A stretch of 31,636 bases of DNA, taken from the IMG/VR virus record IMGVR_UViG_3300032083_001462, positions 1 to 31,636 of that record, one strand, 5' to 3'. Shown piece by piece: positions 2,248 to 28,254 of this stretch (the first letter of the stretch is position 1; each line of letters starts with the position of its first letter). Source of the stretch: a virus. Position numbers and translations under genes: made by a program. Under the pieces are notes generated by a model. It made no database searches. It was not told the DNA's origin and was given only the letters and a program-made list of their open reading frames with translations.

Positions 2248-4361
2248 GGCTGCACCGTGCGGAGGAACAGACGACGTGCCGAGTCGGGGAGCATCGCCAT
2301 CGGATCATACGCCACCCCGTCGCCGCGCATCATCACCGCCGTAGCCGTGACCCCCGTCGTGCTGATCGTGTGCGACACCTGCCGGATCGTCCCGGTGGGC
2401 ACCACCCCGGGGTCGAGGTCCATGACGTGATCCCCGACCCACGAGTCCAGCAGCCCGGCGTAGACGCTCGCCGCCATCGCCTTCGCCAGCGACTCCATCT
2501 CGGCCTTGTTGCACAGCAACGGGTCCAGCGCCGCCCTCTGATCATCGTCCGACTGGCTCACCGGGGCCCCGACGCCGAAGGACCGCTCGATCTGCGCCGA
2601 CAGCGCATCCGACCATGCGTAGCGCGCCGTGGCGAGCTGCCCGCCCACCCGCACCTCCCACACCGGCCCCGACGACTTCTGCGCGTAGGCGCGAGCCCCG
2701 CCCGGGAGCATCGCGATGGCGTCCTCGGCCTTCACCTCGATCGCCTTGAACTGCCCCTTCCCGTTCGGCGCCGCCGGGACCGCCGTGAGAACGATCGTCA
2801 CCCGGTTGTCGGCCTTGAGCGTCACCCCCACGTCGCCATCGTAGACCGACCCGTCTGCCATGAGCGGGACGAGCGCCCCAGCCTTGGACGGATCGGCGGT
2901 CGGGACGTTCTCGACCATGCGCGGGATGATCTGCCGGTAGTGGCCGAGAAGGTCCGTCTGGTAGTCGAGCCGGATGATCCCCGTCTCCGGGTCCACGATC
3001 TCGACCAGGCACGGCGCGACGCTGCCGTTGCTCAACGCCTCGCCGATCGCCAGCGACCCGTCAACGTTCAGCATCCAATACTGCTTCGCCGGATCGCTCA
3101 GCAAACCCTTCGTGCTGGCCACGATGCAGTAGCCGGTGTACGCCTGCGCGCGGGCGAACAGGCCGTTCTCTTGGTCGATGATGCTCACGCGGTACGGCCG
3201 GAACTGGTAGACCCGATCCACCCAGCGGCGGTTGATGCGGAACGTCTGCGAGTAGTGCGCCCGGCAGCAGGCGATGCGCTCGACCCAGTTCGCGCTCGGG
3301 GCCAGTTCGCCCAGGCTCGCCCAGTACGCCTCCGGGAACCCGCTCACCCAGAACTCGCGCAGCGTCGCATCCGAGATGTCGGGGATCGCCGCGTTGCCCT
3401 TGTCAGCGTTCCACGCCGCGAACATCCGCGCATCGTCCAGCACCTCGTAGGTGCCGCTCACCTTCGTCACGCCTCCGACCACCAGCGTCGGGTCGGGGAT
3501 CGGCGCGACGTTCTGGAGGTAGCGCTGGTCCTGCGTGATCGTCTCGCCCGACAGCACCGAATCGAGACGGATCTCCTGCTCCACCTGGAACAGCACCCGC
3601 ACCTTCTCGGGCCGAAGCGCCGAGCGGTCCGAGAAGGACGGCCATTGTCCGTTCACGAAGGACGGGTTCTCGCGCCTGAGCCGGTCCACCAGTTGCGCCG
3701 TCGCGTCCACCGCCGTCGTGTCGTAGACGTGGACACGCCCGTCGATCCCGACGTAGACGTCCGCTCCGGTCAGGTAGTTCATCGCCCGCCGTAGCGCGGT
3801 CCCGCCCTCATCGTCGATGTCCAGGTCCTCCAGCGGAGGGCTCCCGAACGCGCCAAGGCTGCCGACCCACGCACCCGGCGCCAGCCCCTCGAGGATGCGC
3901 TCGACCACCTCGCGCGGCTGCCACGGCTTGCCGTCCTTGAGCGTGGCGGGGTGGTAGAACACGTCATCTGCGACCTGCTGCACCTGCTGGGGAACCCCGT
4001 CCTCGGTCAGCCTTCGACGCTCCCCCGTCCGGCGTCGGACGTTGTAGGAGCCACGGAACCGGCGCCGGCGCCACCAGATGCGGAGGTCGGCCACGAGGAT
4101 CGTGCGGCGGTAGGGGTCGATCGTCTCCGTCTCGCCGATGACGTAGAGGTTGCGGACCTCCATCGTCTTGCCATTGCTCGCCTCGATCCGGAGCGTCAGC
4201 GGCTCAGACCTTCGCCCCTCGCGCGGCACGATCTTGGCCGCCTCGTCCGCGTCCAGCACGAAGGTCTGCGTGAACGGCTCAACCCCGGCGATCACGCTCC
4301 ACCCGATGCCGCCGCTGGCGTCGAGCGTCGCGTCCCCGAGAGTGGCCTTGACCGTGTCCAC
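2244..4361 (-). CDS. Large tail protein, possible tail hub or baseplate component
   Basis: A 705-residue protein starting at a GTG three bases after the upstream stop. The N-terminal 100 residues look beta-rich and end in a very basic patch around WWRRRRFRGS. A middle region contains the segment VYVGIDGRVHVYDTT. The rest mixes beta-rich and alpha-helical parts, with no enzyme motif, signal peptide or membrane segment seen. Size and position, second from the distal end of the tail gene cluster and just before a fibre-like gene, suggest a tail hub or tail-tip structural protein. The family was not recognised from sequence, so this is inference from synteny. Its stop overlaps the start of the next gene by 4 bp (GTGA). 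Confidence 0.7.
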   Translation of the reverse strand: MDTVKATLGDATLDASGGIGWSVIAGVEPFTQTFVLDADEAAKIVPREGRRSEPLTLRIEASNGKTMEVRNLYVIGETETIDPYRRTILVADLRIWWRRRRFRGSYNVRRRTGERRRLTEDGVPQQVQQVADDVFYHPATLKDGKPWQPREVVERILEGLAPGAWVGSLGAFGSPPLEDLDIDDEGGTALRRAMNYLTGADVYVGIDGRVHVYDTTAVDATAQLVDRLRRENPSFVNGQWPSFSDRSALRPEKVRVLFQVEQEIRLDSVLSGETITQDQRYLQNVAPIPDPTLVVGGVTKVSGTYEVLDDARMFAAWNADKGNAAIPDISDATLREFWVSGFPEAYWASLGELAPSANWVERIACCRAHYSQTFRINRRWVDRVYQFRPYRVSIIDQENGLFARAQAYTGYCIVASTKGLLSDPAKQYWMLNVDGSLAIGEALSNGSVAPCLVEIVDPETGIIRLDYQTDLLGHYRQIIPRMVENVPTADPSKAGALVPLMADGSVYDGDVGVTLKADNRVTIVLTAVPAAPNGKGQFKAIEVKAEDAIAMLPGGARAYAQKSSGPVWEVRVGGQLATARYAWSDALSAQIERSFGVGAPVSQSDDDQRAALDPLLCNKAEMESLAKAMAASVYAGLLDSWVGDHVMDLDPGVVPTGTIRQVSHTISTTGVTATAVMMRGDGVAYDPMAMLPDSARRLFLRTVQP

Positions 4362-13550: not shown

Positions 13551-14495
13551 GTTCATCGGCTCCTTGCCGTTGGCCGGCGGCTTGCTCTTGCCGTCCGGCT
13601 CCGAAGTGTCGTCGCTGGGACGAACGCCCTTGTCCTCACCACCGTCCTCGGCGTCGTCCTCGTCGTCCTGCTCGTCGTGATCGTCCTCAGGAGGGCGCAT
13701 CGCGCCCTTGAGCGCGGCGAGCTTCTCCTCCAGCAGACGGATCACGGCGGGCACGTCCTGAAGCGGAACGGCGGTCGCGGCGAGGTCGCTGATCTTCTGA
13801 ACCGCCTCGCTCATGCCGGCGGCAGCCCTCGGCGCGGGCGCGTCCTCGGCCTTGGGCGGCGCCGGGGGAGCCTCGCCATCAGGCTTGGACTCGTCCGGCG
13901 CGTCCTTGGCGAACTTGCGCTTCCGCATCGGGGCCTCGCTGAAGATCAGGCAGCGGTCGCCGAACGAGGCGAACGCCACCACGGGCGCCAGACTTGCATC
14001 GGCAGCAACCGGCGTCACCTCTGCCTCTGTGGCACCTGTCACACCGCCGCCGCTCTTGGCGAAGGTCATGGGCATCTGGAGATAGGGCGCGTTGTCCAGC
14101 AGCGCGACCGACTCCACCTCGGGCTCGCCGCGACCCGGGCGCACCACCTCGGCGCTGCGGTACGGCAGACGCTTGGCGCTCACCTCACGCCACGCACGAT
14201 CGTTCAGCGTCAGGTCAGCGAAGATCGCGCGCCGACCACGGAAGCGGCCGACGCGCGTGGCGCGGAACCAACCCGCGCCCTCGGGCTCGGGGTTGTCCTT
14301 GCGCCGATGCCCGATCGTCAGCGGCGGCAGATGCCCGTCACGCTCCCACTCGCGCAGACGGTCGAACGCAGCCCCGATCCACTCGGCGCTGTACTCGTCA
14401 CCGTCCCGCTCGCATTCGTAGAACACCGGCACGTCGAGCATCGTCCGCGTGCCGTCAGCGTTCTCCACCACGTCGAAGCCGTCGTGCTGGAGCAT
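13062..14495 (-). CDS. Capsid maturation protease fused to scaffold, Mu gpI-like
   Basis: A 477-residue protein starting at an ATG that shares one base with the upstream stop (TGATG). Residues 35-145 (AEWIGAAFDRLREWERDG, LPPLTIGH, AIFADLTLN, KRLPYRSAEV, ALLDNAPYLQMP) match the Mu gpI-type protease region, in which the protease cleaves scaffold and itself during head maturation. Residues 190-310 are a low-complexity linker with a long acidic tract. Residues 316-477 hold a helical segment (AEALAKFAAENAALKGRMDAF minus the first residue) typical of scaffolds, and a C-terminal domain that could bind the capsid. Location directly before the decoration and capsid genes is the usual one. Confidence 0.8.
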   Translation of the reverse strand: MLQHDGFDVVENADGTRTMLDVPVFYECERDGDEYSAEWIGAAFDRLREWERDGHLPPLTIGHRRKDNPEPEGAGWFRATRVGRFRGRRAIFADLTLNDRAWREVSAKRLPYRSAEVVRPGRGEPEVESVALLDNAPYLQMPMTFAKSGGGVTGATEAEVTPVAADASLAPVVAFASFGDRCLIFSEAPMRKRKFAKDAPDESKPDGEAPPAPPKAEDAPAPRAAAGMSEAVQKISDLAATAVPLQDVPAVIRLLEEKLAALKGAMRPPEDDHDEQDDEDDAEDGGEDKGVRPSDDTSEPDGKSKPPANGKEPMNMSADNSKVAGPVDAEALAKFAAENAALKGRMDAFEAEQKRERAIFAAVKDLADYNIGGEPEAVIRGVVTEAGDAWEKTLAIFSAHTKKIAPKRGRSGASDASLPEADSELYPAEVAALGCKTPEDGAVALRCFAAWKANSGGVPFDAYHKFNAKHFGALAGK

Positions 14496-15178
14496 CAGAA
14501 GTACTCCGTCACGATGATGAGCCCGCCGGACCCGTCACCGCCGGCACGGTCCGTCGCGTCCGTCGTGAACGCACCCGAGCCGCCAGCGCCGTAGCCGGCC
14601 GCGTTGACCCCGGCGCCGACCGCGACAGGCCCAAGACCGCCACGCCCGTACGGGCTCGATCCGCCGTTCCCACCGAAACCCACCGTGATCGAGACGTGAC
14701 CGCCCGGAGAGCCCGGAGCGCCAGCCCCGTTCACGTCGCCGCCAGAACCAGCAGCACCGCCAGCACCGCCAGCGACCAGCGCGGCGCCCGTCGCGCTCGC
14801 CTGGTTCGGGCCGCCGCTTCCGCCCTTGGCCGTGATCAGCGTCCCGCCAGCGCCGAACGTCGTGTCACCGCCCGCCGTCCCGTCGTTCGGGCCTGCGGTC
14901 CCGCCAGCACCGCCGGCACCGACCGCGTACGCCTCCGACGCACCCAGCGACGAGCGGTACTTGACCACCACCCCGCCAGCGCCACCGCCACCGGACCCGG
15001 CCGCCTGCGAGTTGTTCCCGTCCACCCCGCCGCCGCCACCGCCGGCGCCGACGCACACGATCTGCGCCGCACGAGCCCCCGAGGTGTAGGTGTGCGTGCC
15101 CGAGCCGCTGGTGTAGACCGTGACCTTCGTCGCCGCAGGCTGCGACGCAGACCCGGAACCCTGCGGAGCGAACGTCAC
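14495..15178 (-). CDS. Glycine-rich fibre-like protein
   Basis: A 227-residue protein with GTG start overlapping the previous stop (GTGA). After a short N-terminal part (KVTVYTSGSGTHTYTSGA) nearly all of it is Gly/Ala-rich with GGxGG clusters and a final LIIVTEY strand. This is the pattern of phage glycine-rich domains seen at tail-fibre tips and other receptor-contact proteins, where Gly-rich motifs form polyglycine-II type bundles. Here it lies between MuF and the protease gene in the head cluster rather than with tail fibres, so it may be a head appendage. No other enzymatic motif is present. Confidence 0.65.
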   Translation of the reverse strand: MTFAPQGSGSASQPAATKVTVYTSGSGTHTYTSGARAAQIVCVGAGGGGGGVDGNNSQAAGSGGGGAGGVVVKYRSSLGASEAYAVGAGGAGGTAGPNDGTAGGDTTFGAGGTLITAKGGSGGPNQASATGAALVAGGAGGAAGSGGDVNGAGAPGSPGGHVSITVGFGGNGGSSPYGRGGLGPVAVGAGVNAAGYGAGGSGAFTTDATDRAGGDGSGGLIIVTEYF

Positions 15179-21431: not shown

Positions 21432-22000
21432 GTTGCGGGATTTTCCGCAGCCTCCGAGACTTCACAGGATGGCTTAGGAGGCGCTTGTATTGTGTCGGTC
21501 GATCCAGGCGCCATCCTCCCCGTCTGAATGGCTCTCAGGAGAACCAGCGCAGCCGCACGGGCCTCCGGGTCGAGCGCGGCGCGCTGGAATCCGGCGATTC
21601 CGACCGCCACGACGGTCTGCTGGCGCTGGTCGAGGTTGACCGTGGTGTGCCGGTGGACCTCCGGGCCCATGCCCAGCAGGCGGCCGATCTTGTAGTCCAC
21701 GTCAGCCGCAGCGCGGTGGTCGCCGGCCTCCCGGAGTTTCCGAGCGGAATCCTCCATCCGCCGGATGACCCGGATGCGGCGGTCCTCGCTGCGCTTGCTG
21801 TCCTCGGCCCGCCACGCGGCCCGGATGCGCCTGAGGTCCCGCGTGATCGTCTCGGTGCTGATCCCCGGCCACCGTGCCACCGCCAGCGCGCGAATCTCGC
21901 GGCGCGACACCGCGTTCAGCAGCCATTCCTCGATCAGCCGGCGGCGCTCGCGGCGCTCGCTCACAGGCCATGCCCCGGTGCTCTTGAGGGGGGGCACCAT
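21428..22000 (-). CDS. Terminase small subunit-like protein
   Basis: A 190-residue protein directly before the large terminase, overlapping it by 4 bp. Residues 15-65 contain a helix-turn-helix-like region (RRLIEEWLLNAVSRREIRAL, then RWPGISTETITRDLRRI), as expected for a DNA-recognition domain. A following helical region (ARKLREAGDHRAAADVDYKI) could be the oligomerisation core; the C-terminus is Pro-rich. The start is uncertain: the ATG at 22000 sits in a hairpin, and a GTG at 21964 is an alternative. Small terminases bind the packaging site, and a motif array lies immediately upstream. The call is by position and domain layout. Confidence 0.65.
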   Translation of the reverse strand: MVPPLKSTGAWPVSERRERRRLIEEWLLNAVSRREIRALAVARWPGISTETITRDLRRIRAAWRAEDSKRSEDRRIRVIRRMEDSARKLREAGDHRAAADVDYKIGRLLGMGPEVHRHTTVNLDQRQQTVVAVGIAGFQRAALDPEARAAALVLLRAIQTGRMAPGSTDTIQAPPKPSCEVSEAAENPAT

Positions 22001-22007
22001 CGGGGCA
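21971..22007. promoter_or_regulatory. Inverted repeat over the small terminase start
   Basis: TGCCCCG (21971-21977) pairs with CGGGGCA (22001-22007) and the next GTGC (21978-21981) with GCAC (21994-21997), leaving a bulge that holds the ATG at 22000. In the mRNA this could hide that start codon, so initiation there would need unfolding, or true initiation is at the GTG at 21964 instead. Confidence 0.4.
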
Positions 22008-22171
22008 CTAGCCTAGCACGCCCAGGCCGGGAGGCTCGGCTTGCGGGTCACGAAGTCGCGCGTGGCGTCGAGTATCCAGGTGGTGCCCGGTCGAATCTCG
22101 GACTTCTGATCGGACACCGGTTCCGGGCCCATTCTGCGGATCGGGAACTGGTTGGAAGTTGGGGCTCGCCG

Positions 22172-22214
22172 ACCAGTTCCCACGCCCCCTACGGGGGCGC
22201 GTGGGGAACTGGGT
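22172..22214. repeat. Imperfect dyad of two array motifs with CGCCCCC-TAC-GGGGGCG core
   Basis: Motif copies at 22172 and 22204 face each other around a perfect 7-bp inverted repeat CGCCCCC (22183-22189) and GGGGGCG (22193-22199) with a 3-base loop. The whole block could extrude as a cruciform or fold in single-stranded DNA. Confidence 0.6.
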
Positions 22215-22374
22215 CGTCGCGCTTGCCCGGCGCAACCAGTTCCGACCGGTTCCCGCGATTCGGGAACTGGTTGCCATGCCTCCGGAGAGCCATTTCTTGC
22301 GGGTGTCTTGTCTGCCACGAAAAAGCCCCTCGTTTTGCGTGTTGTTAGCCTAACTTGCATTTTCCCGATTTACC

Positions 22375-22398
22375 CCAGTTCCCATGCGCGGGAACTGG
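22375..22398. repeat. Exact palindrome of two array motifs
   Basis: CCAGTTCCC (22375-22383) and GGGAACTGG (22390-22398) are perfect 9-bp arms separated by ATGCGC. This is the cleanest dyad of the array and next to the AT-rich segment, so it is a good candidate for a dimer-binding site. Confidence 0.7.
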
Positions 22399-22443
22399 TG
22401 GTTTGCGCGTTTCGACGTTCGCGGACCCTAACGGGAACCGGTA

Positions 22444-22466
22444 CGCCAGGGATACACTTTCTGGCG
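22444..22466 (-). terminator. Stem-loop just after the RepA-like helicase stop
   Basis: CGCCAG (22444-22449) and CTGGCG (22461-22466) form a 6-bp stem with an 11-nt loop, one base after the stop codon of the helicase gene on the reverse strand. No U-run follows, so a factor-independent terminator is not convincing. It could stabilise the 3' end of the early transcript. Confidence 0.3.
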
Positions 22467-22467
22467 C

Positions 22468-23901
22468 TCAGGCGGGCCAGACTGTGGACGGCGTGCCGTT
22501 GGTGCCGTCGCCCTGGACGCGGACGCGACCCTGACGTTCGAGGTCGCGGATGGCCTCGATCACGGTCTGTCGCCGGCCGCCGAGCTCGCGGTGGATCACG
22601 TTCATCGTGCATCCCGGCTGAAGCGCGATGTAGTCGAGGATCTTCTTGCCCATGACGGCGCTTGCAACCTGGAGGCGGTCGGTGATGCGGACCAGCCTGC
22701 CGGCGGGGTCGCGCTCGTAGGTGAAGCCCTGAGCCCATCCGGCGCCGCGCCCGTTGCCCTGGATGCTCCGGACGGTGGAGTCCTCGGCCTGGCCGACCTT
22801 GCGGAGCAGCAGGTATCCGTCCATCGCGCCGGCAAGCGCGGAGGAGCCCCGGATGGCGGCGACTCCCTTCCTGTCCGGGGACTTGGAGAGGTGGTGGACC
22901 AGCACGACGGTCACGCCCTTGGCCGCGATCCTCTTGAGCGGCGCCACGGCAGACTCGACCACGCCGGCGTCGTTCTCGTCGCCCTCCTTGAATCCGGCCC
23001 ATGCGCTGAGGGTGTCGATGATGAGCATGGCGGCCTTGGTCTGCTCGGCCTGCCTCGCGGCGGCGGCGACGACCTGCGCCCACGGGATGGCGCCGAGGTG
23101 GCTCCGCATCATGAGGTGTAGCCCTGGCAGGTTGGCCTTGGCGGGCAGGAGGGCTGTGCGGAGGGTGGCGCGGGCCTCCTCGCTGACCCAGACCACGGCG
23201 TCGGCCTTGCGCGTCTCGAGCCCCACGGCCTCGGTCCCGGTGAGCATGGCGGCGACGATGTGGGCGAGCAGGGTGGTCTTGCCGCACTTGGGCTCGGAGC
23301 AGAGCAGGGTGACGCATCCGGAGGGGAACAGCCCCTCGACGTCCCACGGCATGACGGCCTCCGTGTCGGAGCACACGAGGTCGGCGGGCTCGAAGAGGCT
23401 GCTGGTGGCGGGCGCGTGGATGCTGGCCAGCGCGTGCTCGATGGCGCGTGCGGCCTCGGCGGCGCTGGCGCCCTCTCGCAACCGCTCGCGGATGCCGCTG
23501 CCGGCCTGCTCCAGCAGACGGCGCCGGTGCATCTCGCCGACGATGGCGGCGTGATCCTCGACGTGGGCGGTGCTGGTGTAGGCGCCGAGCAGCGCGTTGA
23601 GGTGGTCTGCGGCGCCGGACTCGTCCTTGGCGTCGCGGAGCCATGCGCGGATCGCGGTGATGCCGGCGGGCCTGCCCGCGTTGTGGATGGCGACGATGGC
23701 GCGCCAGAGCATCCGATGGGCGGGAGCCCAGAAGGACTCGGGGCTGGTGATGATGCCCTGGACGCGGCCGATGGCGTCGCCGGCCTCGGTGATGGCGTCG
23801 CCGTTCTCGGCGAGGGTGAAGGCGCCGACGATGGCGCTGAGAAGCGCGCGCTCGGCGTCCTCGTCGGACCAGGGCGCGTCGGTGCTGATGGGCTCGCTCA
23901 T
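22468..23901 (-). CDS. Replicative helicase: DnaB-N domain fused to RepA-like ATPase
   Basis: A 477-residue protein with an ATG overlapping the upstream stop (ATGA). Residues 11-160 have the helical layout of a DnaB N-terminal domain (ERALLSAIVGAF, then FWAPAHRMLWRAIVAIHNAG). Residues 188-415 are a RecA-type ATPase: Walker A SEPKCGKTT (202-210), Walker B LIIDTLS (293-299), then VLVHHLSK (333-340) and RGSSALAGAMDG (351-362), signatures shared with RepA hexameric helicases. Residues 417-465 form a winged-helix region that could bind DNA. It would unwind DNA at the phage origin, probably near the array at 22116-22442 downstream. Confidence 0.8.
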   Translation of the reverse strand: MSEPISTDAPWSDEDAERALLSAIVGAFTLAENGDAITEAGDAIGRVQGIITSPESFWAPAHRMLWRAIVAIHNAGRPAGITAIRAWLRDAKDESGAADHLNALLGAYTSTAHVEDHAAIVGEMHRRRLLEQAGSGIRERLREGASAAEAARAIEHALASIHAPATSSLFEPADLVCSDTEAVMPWDVEGLFPSGCVTLLCSEPKCGKTTLLAHIVAAMLTGTEAVGLETRKADAVVWVSEEARATLRTALLPAKANLPGLHLMMRSHLGAIPWAQVVAAAARQAEQTKAAMLIIDTLSAWAGFKEGDENDAGVVESAVAPLKRIAAKGVTVVLVHHLSKSPDRKGVAAIRGSSALAGAMDGYLLLRKVGQAEDSTVRSIQGNGRGAGWAQGFTYERDPAGRLVRITDRLQVASAVMGKKILDYIALQPGCTMNVIHRELGGRRQTVIEAIRDLERQGRVRVQGDGTNGTPSTVWPA

Positions 23902-25442
23902 GCGCCTCCCGTGGCTGCCTTGCGGAACTCCCGCTCCTTGTCCGATGCGAACTTGTTGGCGAACCAGGATGCCTTCGCCGGGTTGTCCTTGCCCCAGGGC
24001 TTGGATAGGGCGATCTGCCGGCCGAGCCTCCTCCACTCCTCCCGGAGCGCCGTGATCTCGTCGGCGCTGGCGTGGGCTGGCTGTACGAGGCGGTCCTCGA
24101 CGTGGACGGGCCACTCGTTGAAGGTGGCCTTGTAGCGAGCCAGCGCGATCTTGGGGTTGCCCTTGTGCACGGCGTGGTGGTAGGCGCGGCGCCAGAAGCG
24201 GGCCTTGTCGTCCCAGGTGACGGGGGCGGCCTTGGCGGCGTGCTTGACCTCGAGCGCCCCCTCGACCTCGAAGACGCCGGGCCGGGCGCCGCTCAAGCCC
24301 CAGACGTAGCCGCAGTCGGGACATGGGTTCTCGCCCAGCGCCAGGACGAGCCCGCAGGAGGGGCACTTCTTGGAGTCGATGGCGGCGGCCTTGACGGAGC
24401 CGTCGAGGCTGTAGGTGAGGGCGCGGGTGGGGAGGCCGTGGCGGTCGTAGTTGCCGGCGTGGTCGAGGACGAGGGCGCCGGCCTTGCCCTCGGCTGCGCG
24501 CATGATGCGGCCGAGCATCTGGAGGTGCAGTTGCAGGGACTTGGTGGGGCGGGCGACGATGGCGACCTCGAGGGCGGGGAGGTCCCAGCCTTCGGTGAGG
24601 ATCATGCAGTTGCACAGGACGTCGATCCTGTGGTGGGCGAGGTCGGCGAGGATGCCGGCGCGCTCGACGGGTCCGGTGGTGCCGTCGATGTGGGCGGCGC
24701 GGACGCCTGCGGCGCGGAATCGGTCGCGCAGGCTCTTGGAGTGCTCGACGTTGACGGCGAATACGACGGTGCGGCGGCCCTGAGCGCGCGCGAGCCAGGT
24801 CTCGACGATGCGCCCGACGATCTTGGGCCCGCGCATGACGTCGGCGGCTTCGCCCTGGTTGAAGTCTCCCGCGACGGTGTGGACGGCGCTGAGGTCGGGG
24901 GACTCGGGGGCGAAGATGGTGGGCTCGACGAGGGTTCCGTCGGCGCAGAGCTCGGCGGTGGAGGCGGCCACGACGATCTGCTGGAAGCCGACGTCGCCCA
25001 GCCCGATGCCGTCGAGTCGGAAGGGGGTGGCGGTGAGGCCGAGGATCTTGGCGTGCGCGTAGTTGTCGAACAGGGCGCGGTAGGAGTCGGCGGTGGCGTG
25101 GTGGCACTCGTCGATCACCACGAGGTCGGCGGGTGGCGGCTCGCGGCGCGCGAGGGTCTGGATGGAGGCGACCTGGACGGGCGCGACGGTGGCGGGGCGT
25201 CCAGCGAGGATGATGCCGGATAGGATTCCTGACCGCAGTAGCCGTTCGTGGGCCTGTCCGATCAGCTCGCGGCGGTGGGCGATCCAGAGGGCTCGCGCTC
25301 CGTTCCTGACGACGGCCTCGGCGCCCATGACGGTCTTGCCGGCTCCGGTGGGCGCGACGAGGATGGTGGGGTGGGACGCAACGGCGGCGAGCGCTTCGGA
25401 TACGGCGCGCTCCTGGTAGGGCCGGAGTGTGATAGCGGTCAT
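23898..25442 (-). CDS. SF2 DNA/RNA helicase with DECH box and zinc ribbon
   Basis: A 514-residue protein starting at an ATG overlapping the previous stop (ATGA). Motifs: Walker A PTGAGKT (31-37), DECH (111-114), TATP (137-140), ILTEGWD (281-287) and GRIMRA (311-316), giving a complete two-lobe superfamily 2 motor of the restriction/repair type. Residues 360-377 add CPSC and CPDC, a zinc ribbon that may hold nucleic acid. The C-terminal 120 residues are Lys/Trp-rich helices. No nuclease motif is present. It probably remodels DNA during replication or recombination together with the RepA-like helicase just downstream. Confidence 0.85.
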   Translation of the reverse strand: MTAITLRPYQERAVSEALAAVASHPTILVAPTGAGKTVMGAEAVVRNGARALWIAHRRELIGQAHERLLRSGILSGIILAGRPATVAPVQVASIQTLARREPPPADLVVIDECHHATADSYRALFDNYAHAKILGLTATPFRLDGIGLGDVGFQQIVVAASTAELCADGTLVEPTIFAPESPDLSAVHTVAGDFNQGEAADVMRGPKIVGRIVETWLARAQGRRTVVFAVNVEHSKSLRDRFRAAGVRAAHIDGTTGPVERAGILADLAHHRIDVLCNCMILTEGWDLPALEVAIVARPTKSLQLHLQMLGRIMRAAEGKAGALVLDHAGNYDRHGLPTRALTYSLDGSVKAAAIDSKKCPSCGLVLALGENPCPDCGYVWGLSGARPGVFEVEGALEVKHAAKAAPVTWDDKARFWRRAYHHAVHKGNPKIALARYKATFNEWPVHVEDRLVQPAHASADEITALREEWRRLGRQIALSKPWGKDNPAKASWFANKFASDKEREFRKAATGGA

Positions 25443-25621
25443 GTCGTGTCCGTGGCGGCGCGGTGCTTCGGGCAGGACTCGCTTGCGGCGGTGTCGGAGC
25501 AGCCATGATCAGGGGCGGGCCCTCCGATGGCGCACGTCCCGACAGCGCGCGGAATCTTGCCCGTGTCGATGCCCGGTGGTGCGCGCCAGATGGCGCAGGT
25601 GGAGCAGGTCTTGTTGCTCAC
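25439..25621 (-). CDS. Cys-rich mini-protein
   Basis: A 60-residue protein with GTG start inside the ParB-like stop (GTGA). Six cysteines are present (CSTC, TCAIG, GCSD and SCPKH), so it probably folds around zinc. Such small zinc proteins in phage early operons often bind DNA or adapt host enzymes. No specific family is recognised. Translational coupling to both neighbours suggests a role in the replication unit. Confidence 0.55.
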   Translation of the reverse strand: MSNKTCSTCAIWRAPPGIDTGKIPRAVGTCAIGGPAPDHGCSDTAASESCPKHRAATDTT

Positions 25622-26508
25622 GCCCGAGCGTCACGATTCTTGCGGGTGCTCTGCGCGTCGCGCACCACCTCGGCCGCCTCCTCCGTGGTCATGGGGATGA
25701 AGATGTCCCCGTTGGATCGGCGCATCTTGGCGTGGTCGAGGATGCCGGGCTTGAGGATGCTGACCTGATGGTTGGCGAGGTAGCAGACCCAGGCTCGGAT
25801 GCAGAACTCCAGGATGGCCAGCGGGCGATGCTTGGCGCGCATGGTGGCGTTGGCAAGCAGGGTGTCGCGGAGCTTGAGCGCGGGGCTTCCCCTGCTCAGG
25901 CCCTCGCCCGTCTCCACGGCGTCCCAGAAGGGCCGTGCGTCCTTCGGGTTCTTCCGCATCGTCTCCCAATGCATGAAGGCGACGGGCGCGGTGTTCATGT
26001 GCCGCTTGCCGTTGGTGTAGCGCACGGACTCGATCACGGTGGGGTAGTCGGTGGCGAGGGTGGCGATGTCGTTGTTGGCGGGGCGGTGCTCGGCGGCCAT
26101 GCTACCGAGCACGCCGAGCTCGTTCTGCCAGACGAGCCGCAGGACGGCTGCGACACGGTTGGCGCTGGACATCCCGCCTGCGGTGAGCACGTCCGCGCCG
26201 GAGCGGGATCGGCCGCAGTCGATGGTCGGGAAAGCATCCCGATGGACGCCTCGCACGATCAGGGTTCGCACGGACTTCTTGGACAGTACGACGGCGGCGC
26301 ATCGGTGCTGCCCGTCGAGCAGGTTCCCGTCACCGTCCACGATGATCGGCTGGCCGTTGAAGGTCCAGCCACCGCGCTCGATCTCGGCGGCGAGGGCGCG
26401 GACGCGCCCGGAGGCGAGCCCACGGTTGCCCTTGTTCTTCGCCAGCAGTTCCGCCGCCATCTTGGGCGTGAGGTCGATCAGTTCACGGGTCACTCGTTCC
26501 AGGCTCAT
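25618..26508 (-). CDS. ParB/Srx-like protein with DGQHR motif
   Basis: A 296-residue protein with an AGGAA ribosome site before the ATG. Residues 30-100 (RVRALAAEIERGGWTFNGQP, LLDGQHRCAAV and VRTLIVRGVHR) follow the ParB N-terminal/sulfiredoxin-like fold, where DGQHR forms the nucleotide-binding or catalytic loop. The C-terminal two thirds are helical (RDAFPTIDCGRSRSGADVL onward) and likely bind DNA or a partner. Members of this broad superfamily include partition proteins and nucleases. Here it stands alone without a ParA, so partition is unlikely; a role in early DNA metabolism is possible. The biochemical activity cannot be read from sequence. Confidence 0.65.
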   Translation of the reverse strand: MSLERVTRELIDLTPKMAAELLAKNKGNRGLASGRVRALAAEIERGGWTFNGQPIIVDGDGNLLDGQHRCAAVVLSKKSVRTLIVRGVHRDAFPTIDCGRSRSGADVLTAGGMSSANRVAAVLRLVWQNELGVLGSMAAEHRPANNDIATLATDYPTVIESVRYTNGKRHMNTAPVAFMHWETMRKNPKDARPFWDAVETGEGLSRGSPALKLRDTLLANATMRAKHRPLAILEFCIRAWVCYLANHQVSILKPGILDHAKMRRSNGDIFIPMTTEEAAEVVRDAQSTRKNRDARA

Positions 26509-26512
26509 GGGC

Positions 26513-26701
26513 TCAGTTCCTTCCGTTGTTGTCGTTCGAGAGGATGTGTTGATCGAGCTCGCCCCGCAGGACGCGCTGAGTGAACGCGTCGCCGTAGGAG
26601 AGCAGGTAGGTGGCGCGAGCCTCGTGGAGCCGCAGCAGGCGCAGGGCCTCGGCTAGCGGGTCGGGCTGGCGCTCGCGGGGCGTGTCGGTGTCGAGGATCA
26701 T
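26513..26701 (-). CDS. Small acidic helical protein
   Basis: A 62-residue protein; ATG at 26701 overlaps the stop of the HTH gene (ATGA). A helix (LAEALRLLRLHEARATYLL) and a second helix (QRVLRGELDQHIL) with an Asn-rich end are visible. The end of this gene supplies the AAGGAA ribosome site of the ParB-like gene. No family recognised. Confidence 0.55.
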   Translation of the reverse strand: MILDTDTPRERQPDPLAEALRLLRLHEARATYLLSYGDAFTQRVLRGELDQHILSNDNNGRN

Positions 26702-26880
26702 TGCGCGGCCTGTTTGCGCGCGGAGGCGATTTGGGCCTCTGTGAATCGCAGCAGGCGCGGCCCGACGCGCGTTCCTCTCAGGATTCCGGACCTGACCCAT
26801 CGACCGAGGGTGCGTGGGCTGATGCGGAGGATGGAGGCGGCCTCGCGGCGCGTGTAGAGGTAGGGCGCGGGGGTGAGCAT
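26698..26880 (-). CDS. Excisionase/MerR-like helix-turn-helix protein
   Basis: A 60-residue protein; the ATG at 26880 (or 26892) starts just before YTRREAASILRISPRTLGRW and LLRFTEAQIASA, the winged HTH_17 fold of excisionase-type proteins. The first helix with EAASIL, the turn, the recognition helix (PRTLGRW) and the RLLRF wing are all present. It is the first gene of the leftward unit, beside the repeat-bearing intergenic region, so it may regulate its own promoter. Excisionase function would need an integrase, and none was seen here. Confidence 0.7.
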   Translation of the reverse strand: MLTPAPYLYTRREAASILRISPRTLGRWVRSGILRGTRVGPRLLRFTEAQIASARKQAAQ

Positions 26881-26908
26881 GGGCGGGAGCATAGCGCGGC
26901 CGGTGACA

Positions 26909-26925
26909 TGGCCTCTTGTGTCCAC
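26909..26925 (+). repeat. 17-bp direct repeat, copy 1
   Basis: TGGCCTCTTGTGTCCAC, identical to copy 2 at 27022-27038, 113 bp away. With one more flanking base in copy 2 the ends GTGG and CCAC are complementary, giving a partial dyad. Likely an operator half of the divergent region. Confidence 0.75.
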
Positions 26926-27021
26926 ACGGAAAACGGCGCATTTCGTCCGGTCTATTCTTGCGTATAGAGAGCGCTGTTCGGTTTTCTCGTCGATCCACGC
27001 AATGCGGGGCCTTGGTCCCGG

Positions 27022-27038
27022 TGGCCTCTTGTGTCCAC
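27022..27038 (+). repeat. 17-bp direct repeat, copy 2
   Basis: Exact copy of the repeat at 26909-26925, in the same orientation. It lies 60 bp before the start of the rightward operon, next to a CTATTCT element, so a bound protein could control that operon's promoter. Confidence 0.75.
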
Positions 27039-27098
27039 TTGGGCTATTCTGTGTGTGTCGCGCTGGTCCTGGTGGCTGGTGCGGCGCAGGGAGGCGAC

Positions 27099-27509
27099 GT
27101 GAGCGTGTCCAGCAGCGCAGAGACATCCGTGCTGTTCCGCGACGCGCTGCGGCGCCATGTGGACGAGTTCTGCGCGCCCGAGGGCGCGTATCCGACTTGC
27201 ACGGGGGCGGCTCTCCAGGCCGCCGATGACCTGGGATGTGGTGCTGGCGCTTCTCCCCTGCGCGCCGCCCTGCCCGCGCCGCTCGTGAGCCGTGGGGGGG
27301 CGGACCCTGATGACCGCCCCTGCCACGGCACCTCTCTGCCGACCGGCGCCGCTGGCGCCGCTCTTCCCCGGTCTCACACCTCCCATGCCTCGCGGTGGCC
27401 GGGCGCCGGTCGGCTTCTTCATCGCGCTGTGCGCCTCCTGGCGCTCGCGCTCTACGTCGCTGCGGCGCTGGGCGTGATGTGCCTCGCCGCGCTGGGAGAC
27501 AACCGATGA
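27099..27509 (+). CDS. Small protein with C-terminal membrane segment
   Basis: A 136-residue protein beginning at GTG 27099, chosen because GGAGG lies 4 nt upstream and the frame upstream contains the promoter region. Residues 1-45 look like a folded helical part ([19 protein letters not shown]) containing two Cys. The middle is low-complexity. The end, [20 protein letters not shown], is a clear single membrane helix followed by a short polar tail. It is the first gene of the rightward unit. A membrane-tethered early protein could act at the envelope, for example in exclusion of other phages, but nothing here proves it. Confidence 0.5.
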
Positions 27510-27718: not shown

Positions 27719-28254
27719 GCCCCGAACAGATCCGCGATGTTCTCGACAAGCACGCGAAGTGGCTGCGCGGCGAGGATGGTGGCGAGCGCGCCAACCTCGC
27801 AGGCGCCGACCTCGCAGGCGCCAACCTCGCAGGCGCCGACCTCGCAGGCGCCAACCTCGCAGACGCCAACCTCGCAGACGCCAACCTCGCAGGCGCCAAC
27901 CTCGCAGGCGCCTACCTCGCAGGCGCCGACCTCGCAGGCGCCAACCTCGCAGACGCCAACCTCGCAGACGCCAACCTCGCAGACGCCTACCTCGCAGGCG
28001 CCAAGATCGCCGCTGGCGAGGTCGCGCGCCACCTGTCTGGTGGTTGGCTGCTCGCTTACGGGTGGACCGCGCTTGTGATGCGGGACGGCGCCACGCGCCT
28101 GCGCTACGGGTGCGAGGAACACGCGCTGACCGAGTGGCCCGCGCTGCTGCACGGCCTGTGCGAGAAGCACGTTGCCAGTGAGAGGGTGGACGAGTACGAG
28201 CGCGACCTGACGGCGCTGCTGGCCTTCGTCGGGGCGCTGGGGGTGCGGTCGTGA
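27715..28254 (+). CDS. Pentapeptide-repeat protein
   Basis: A 179-residue protein with GTG start inside the previous stop (GTGA). A short N-terminal helix ([17 protein letters not shown]) is followed by fourteen uninterrupted pentapeptides of the A(N/D/Y)LA(G/D) type (residues 26-95), predicted to form a right-handed quadrilateral beta-helix. A C-terminal domain follows ([36 protein letters not shown]), a tail found on other phage pentapeptide proteins. Family members can mimic DNA (as in Qnr or MfpA, which inhibit gyrase) but most have no assigned role. The repeats here are unusually uniform at the DNA level. Confidence 0.8.
27790..27999 (+). repeat. Fourteen tandem 15-bp units encoding pentapeptides
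   Basis: Units are GCC-AAC/GAC/TAC-CTC-GCA-GGC/GAC in frame, with variation confined to the second codon and to the last codon. Even the synonymous positions are nearly constant, pointing to recent expansion or homogenisation by slippage or recombination rather than long divergence. Confidence 0.85.

Follow-up and report, generated by a model that had tools for sequence, protein, structure and literature searches.

The window, by which we mean the whole stretch of DNA analysed, is a virus contig of 31,636 bases with a leftward gene set in the order DEAD helicase, RepA-like helicase, iteron array, a gene in the position of a small terminase (TerS), TerL and late genes. The TerS-position gene starts at 22000, 116 bp from the array, and TerL is next. 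The original prediction had set the array between helicase and terminase genes; an AAA_25 helicase does end at 22468 and TerL does come after the TerS-position gene, while the small terminase is named from gene position only (the protein has no Pfam or PHROG match). Two further genes of the window may be mentioned here: one for a conserved PHROG 5931 protein (function not assigned; 25618-26508), directly upstream of the DEAD helicase gene, and a plus-strand gene at 27780-28015 for a pentapeptide-repeat-like protein, built of near-identical 15-bp units. The features of the locus are as follows.

22001-22467, intergenic region, non-coding, 63% GC, proposed replication origin
22116-22125, minus strand, iteron 1, CGGAACCGGT, 1 mismatch
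22143-22152, plus strand, iteron 2, GGGAACTGGT, exact
22170-22215, inverted pair of iterons 3 and 4, enclosing a GC stem with a CTAC loop
22172-22181, minus strand, iteron 3, GGGAACTGGT, exact
22204-22213, plus strand, iteron 4, GGGAACTGGG, 1 mismatch
22235-22244, minus strand, iteron 5, CGGAACTGGT, 1 mismatch
22245-22254, minus strand, iteron 6, GGGAACCGGT, exact, abutting iteron 5
22262-22271, plus strand, iteron 7, GGGAACTGGT, exact
22320-22372, AT-rich stretch, the AT-richest 52 bp in the contig, candidate unwinding element
22374-22383, minus strand, iteron 8, GGGAACTGGG, 1 mismatch
22374-22399, inverted pair of iterons 8 and 9, a dyad (22375-22398) of perfect 9-bp arms around a 6-nt non-palindromic centre
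22390-22399, plus strand, iteron 9, GGGAACTGGT, exact
22433-22442, plus strand, iteron 10, GGGAACCGGT, exact, about 25 bp from the helicase stop codon
22468-23901, minus strand, RepA-like helicase gene (477 aa; DnaB-N-like domain, AAA_25 domain of RecA fold, C-terminal winged helix), proposed initiator
22471-22731, minus strand, codons of the modelled C-terminal 87 residues with the winged-helix domain (pLDDT 87)
22570-22581, minus strand, GGRR codons at the N-terminus of the recognition helix, putative reader of GGGAAC

With up to one mismatch allowed, GGGAACYGGT occurs ten times in 22116-22442, five times on each strand; six of the copies are exact to this consensus and four to its T form, the latter agreeing with the four exact copies originally counted. 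The array had been proposed as ten copies with five in each orientation, and this was confirmed: in 1000 runs of a third-order Markov simulation of the contig, no 328-bp stretch contained more than 3 copies, whereas 10 are observed. The rest of the contig (31.3 kb) holds only four further matches at this threshold (at 196, 728, 3199 and 28910). The dyad described at 22375-22398 is indeed perfect. The DNA fold of the other inverted pair, 22170-22215, has an energy of -19.1 kcal/mol and a z of -5.35, a value that the iteron pair itself inflates. The contrast drawn earlier with classical iterons also stands, given the equal numbers in the two orientations and the irregular spacing; a dimeric binding protein had been suggested from this, and a winged helix carried on a multimeric helicase would account for the mixed orientation equally well.

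No ORF overlying the array has the codon-position signal of a gene, in line with the original description of the region as non-coding: G+C is flat across codon positions in the minus-strand ORFs (about 0.62-0.69) and shows no gene-like pattern in those of the plus strand, as against about 0.7/0.5/0.9 in the contig's real genes. The AT-rich segment noticed beside the array (starting at 22320 or 22321) is 58% AT in a genome of 70% GC, the highest AT content of any 52-bp stretch of the contig.

Pfam matched DnaB-N and AAA_25 in the helicase, with no Toprim or SF3 domain. A profile comparison relates its core to RSF1010 RepA (1g8y, E 4.9e-25, over profile positions 163-351) and also matched RecA. 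The full-length model was mediocre (pLDDT 67), and we therefore used the model of the C-terminal 87 residues alone; this is a winged helix with fold matches to MarR and Z-alpha. Direct search of viral contigs found no close relatives of the helicase or of the TerS-position protein, and among known phages the helicase had two weak partial matches and the TerS-position protein none.

Since the window's proteins lack close relatives, we screened 2.9 million viral contigs for the DNA motif alone, using gene-blind patterns (an inverted pair and a direct pair) and, as control, a scrambled inverted pair of equal composition; a profile made from helicases that adjoin arrays then served to detect helicases at the motif loci. 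At 22 of 120 inverted-pair loci the match lay 3-206 bp past the stop codon of an AAA_25/RepA-like helicase (Fisher 1.7e-7), as it did at 11 of 104 direct-pair loci (Fisher 1.6e-4). Taken together, 33 of 224 loci were helicase-adjacent, versus 0 of 120 for the scrambled control; the helicase profile was trained on some of the counted loci, which cannot create a positional effect but leaves the counts not fully independent. Among 22 records, the window and 21 motif contigs, Pfam AAA_25 matched 15, nearly all of them just upstream of the array. The array lies 3' of helicases in about 16 lineages that are less than 50% identical (14 clusters including the window, plus the later finds L404 and L570), and BLAST of the window's helicase against the other lineages gave 20-34% identity, one 37-residue fragment excepted.

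A pattern of three same-strand copies, searched in viral and genome contigs, behaved differently, with a helicase adjacent at 1 of 65 and 0 of 120 loci; because most such loci lack the helicase, we rejected tandem GGGAACYGG alone as a signature. The pattern ACCGGTTCCC..GGGAACCGGT gave 7 loci, part of them chance. One contig without an AAA_25 match (L088) has eight perfect tandem GGGAACA 7-mers at 2300-2355, where a different protein may read the same sequence. As GGGAAC was the search criterion, its constancy among the positives comes partly from selection; the evidence independent of the search key is the positional effect relative to the control pattern and the different repeats found with other helicases.

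The repeat changes together with the C-terminal domain of the helicase. Helicases with GGGAAC arrays mostly end in a winged helix whose recognition (third) helix starts with two adjacent basic residues, in variants such as GGRR, KGKR, EGRR, GGRK and AGKK. At least three copies of GGGAAC lie within 500 bp downstream for 35 of the 41 helicases carrying this winged helix that were gathered here; among the six exceptions, the array is elsewhere in the same locus (L121 and L221) or overlaps the helicase stop codon (L570), and L047, a fragment, has few copies. The last two, MinS1 (NGKAS) and L325 (SHDRS), have winged helices of this family in which the paired basic residues are missing, and their repeats are different, GGGACGAGG and GTTGTCA, respectively. 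Conversely, the profile of the winged helix finds no match in a few GGGAAC-array helicases (the L029 group, L123 and L163). Where the helicase has some other C-terminal domain, a private repeat occupies the same downstream place. Some relatives also have a Prim-Pol domain. The arrays and private repeats are listed here.

L298, private repeat ACGGACA
L337, private repeat CGAAACA
Roseobacter phage CRP-831 (L573), array at 3885-4027, private repeat TGTATAAA
Microcystis phage MinS1 (L574), array at 308-465, private repeat GGGACGAGG
ct3Oc712 (L575), array at 14433-14538, private 7-mer TGGGACA
Idiomarinaceae phage 1N2-2 (L576), array at 34211-34381, private 7-mer CGGTACA
Alteromonas phage XX1924 (L577), array at 24389-24532, private 7-mer TGAACCA

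In each of the five named phages (L573-L577) the private 7-mer array sits directly 3' of the RepA-like helicase gene, a site without origin annotation in these records. The Microbacterium phages Koji and WilliamStrong, whose helicase ends right after the motor, have no array. We also assembled a motif-independent panel, scoring a site as positive when a single 7-mer occurred five times or more within the following 400 bp: this was so for 10 of 27 helicases versus 3 of 181 control sites after other ORFs of the same records (p 6e-8, which is optimistic as some panel members are mutually related), leaving 17 of the 27 AAA_25 helicases without a strong array. A separate observation concerns L112 and L551, whose helicases are 81% identical: the base after GGGAAC is mostly A/T in L112 and G in L551, and their reader domains have EGRRQMK and EGRKQTK, respectively, making them a natural pair for a study of the site code.

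Arrays 3' of such helicases in many unrelated lineages, with repeats that change with the C-terminal domain, lead us to the reading that the array is most likely the phage replication origin, with iterons bound by the helicase's own winged helix so as to load the helicase. From this pattern we infer iteron binding, melting, helicase loading and origin activity, which might proceed as follows. The winged-helix C-terminus would bind the GGGAAC(T/C)GGT iterons; the many sites in both orientations would gather helicase subunits over the AT-rich stretch; this stretch, 22320-22372, would be melted and the helicase ring loaded on it. The inverted iteron pair around the small hairpin could serve as a loading or priming structure, comparable to the ssi sites of RSF1010. 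Three readings had been offered originally, and they fared unequally: the helicase-bound replication origin gained strong comparative support, the packaging site was weakened, and an operator is left as at most a side function.

As an operator cluster, the array would regulate either the late operon with the terminase or expression of the helicase itself. It does lie upstream of co-directed late genes, and winged helices are often regulators, as initiators are often autoregulated. On the other hand, the array sits 3' of the helicase gene and is followed by different genes in most lineages. Ten sites spread across 327 bp and interrupted by an AT-rich segment would be large for an operator, and this reading leaves the link to the helicase unexplained. 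We consider it very unlikely as the main role, with regulation perhaps a secondary function of the array. It is very unlikely that the array is an origin whose iterons are read by another protein, for example an HTH_17 protein or a host factor. The phage has such a separate small HTH protein (HTH_17, 26698-27126), and RSF1010 uses RepC, a protein distinct from RepA, as its iteron binder (PMC4234260), but the repeats change with the helicase's own C-terminal domain and arrays are absent where the helicase ends right after the motor. A role in packaging, with the array as a cos or pac site recognised by the small terminase of the adjacent gene, is highly improbable: the TerS-position gene does start 116 bp away with TerL after it, and TerL is shortly downstream in the L112/L078 family too, but the array goes with the helicase and not with the terminase, most relatives have some other neighbour gene (a Holliday junction resolvase in L046, a methyltransferase in L029, a DEAD helicase in L570, and others without assigned function), the terminase is about 2-6 kb from the array in the complete CRP-831, MinS1, ct3Oc712 and XX1924 (1N2-2 departs from this if its genome is taken as circular), and, as the next gene varies among lineages, the terminase appears incidental.

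The helicase-read origin can be set beside several known systems. SaPI Rep and SCCmec Cch2 use their C-terminal domains to bind iterons that lie immediately 3' of the genes encoding them; their motor is D5-related, and Cch2 moves 3'-5' (PMC7581432). Shared with these are a helicase with a C-terminal domain for binding double-strand DNA (here a winged-helix model, with binding predicted), short iterons just past the end of the helicase gene, and the proposed self-loading. The window differs in its AAA_25/RepA-like motor of RecA fold in place of a D5-related core, in belonging to a tailed phage, and in having iterons in both orientations and a small hairpin.

The P4 alpha helicase is of SF3 type, and the P4 iteron is similar to GGTGAACAG. 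The winged-helix domain of P4 alpha binds origin repeats, after which unwinding occurs, and the protein has a Toprim primase (PMC4234260). The window resembles it in the winged helix and in repeats at the proposed origin, with neither Toprim nor SF3 found in its helicase; the P4 alpha winged helix is not among the fold or sequence matches listed, which bears neither way. RSF1010 divides helicase, iteron binding and priming among the separate polypeptides RepA, RepC and RepB', and has the priming sites ssiA and ssiB (PMC4234260). The window is like it in its RepA-related motor, and its iterons and short hairpins recall ssiA/ssiB; in contrast, its putative iteron reader and its helicase are fused in one protein. 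In pRN1 (replication protein ORF904, with a winged helix) and phage BIP-1, the origin comes immediately after the 3' end of a gene whose product, a replication protein, ends in a winged helix, and a stem-loop is important (PMC4234260); these differ from the window in having an SF3 helicase and one large stem-loop, with the iteron array absent. Classical iteron plasmid origins are set apart by the window's five copies per orientation, irregular spacing and lack of a TTWTNCACA box, and a cos/pac site by the lack of a consistent link between arrays and terminase genes across relatives. We looked for D5 and SF3 cores and found a RecA/RepA motor, so the window's system would work like these others while belonging to none of them.

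Whether the window exemplifies a wide and undescribed class of phage origins seems to us evenly balanced. Such a class would comprise RecA-fold helicases of RepA type with an exchangeable reader domain, self-loading at private downstream iterons, sharing the device of an inverted-pair hairpin, and with a code set by few residues of the recognition helix. Within the literature searched, for which coverage is incomplete, we found no account of GGGAAC origins or of such an arrangement with RepA-like phage helicases, and the MinS1 paper does not mention an origin. To our knowledge, the origin has not been mapped in most sequenced tailed phages. If the rule is true, the origin would lie directly 3' of any RepA-like or Prim-Pol helicase that carries a reader domain at its C-terminus, and the repeats there would be the reader's site, making origins and their specificities predictable from sequence in many phages. 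It would also suggest that replicative helicases of RecA fold can act as initiators that load themselves, as is best documented for motors of the SF3 and D5 types.

In several arrays two iterons face outward from a short stem whose loop is TTTA, TAAA or CTA; such nested hairpins are found in the window (22170-22215), L106, L139, L163, L120, L126, L337 and CRP-831. A crude stem test was not significant in most arrays, and we therefore describe the hairpin and do not claim it as statistically proven. The window has no consensus DnaA box (TTWTNCACA). DnaA-box-like sequences, TTATCCACA or similar, occur near the arrays of L106 (near 410) and L126 (near 3305), and also 3' of the helicase in L544 (ctjtQ328) and L569 (Leaf).

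No GC-skew switch, a check suggested originally, coincides with the array: the change point for third positions falls at 18.6-19.2 kb, and the cumulative curve reaches its minimum at 19.4 kb. For the window and five complete array-bearing phage genomes, three of the six skew minima fall no more than 3 kb from the array. We also observed that the two helicase genes of the window (22468-25442) have third-position GC skews of 0.36 and 0.48 in plus-strand reading, a strong reversal compared with most of the same-strand late genes.
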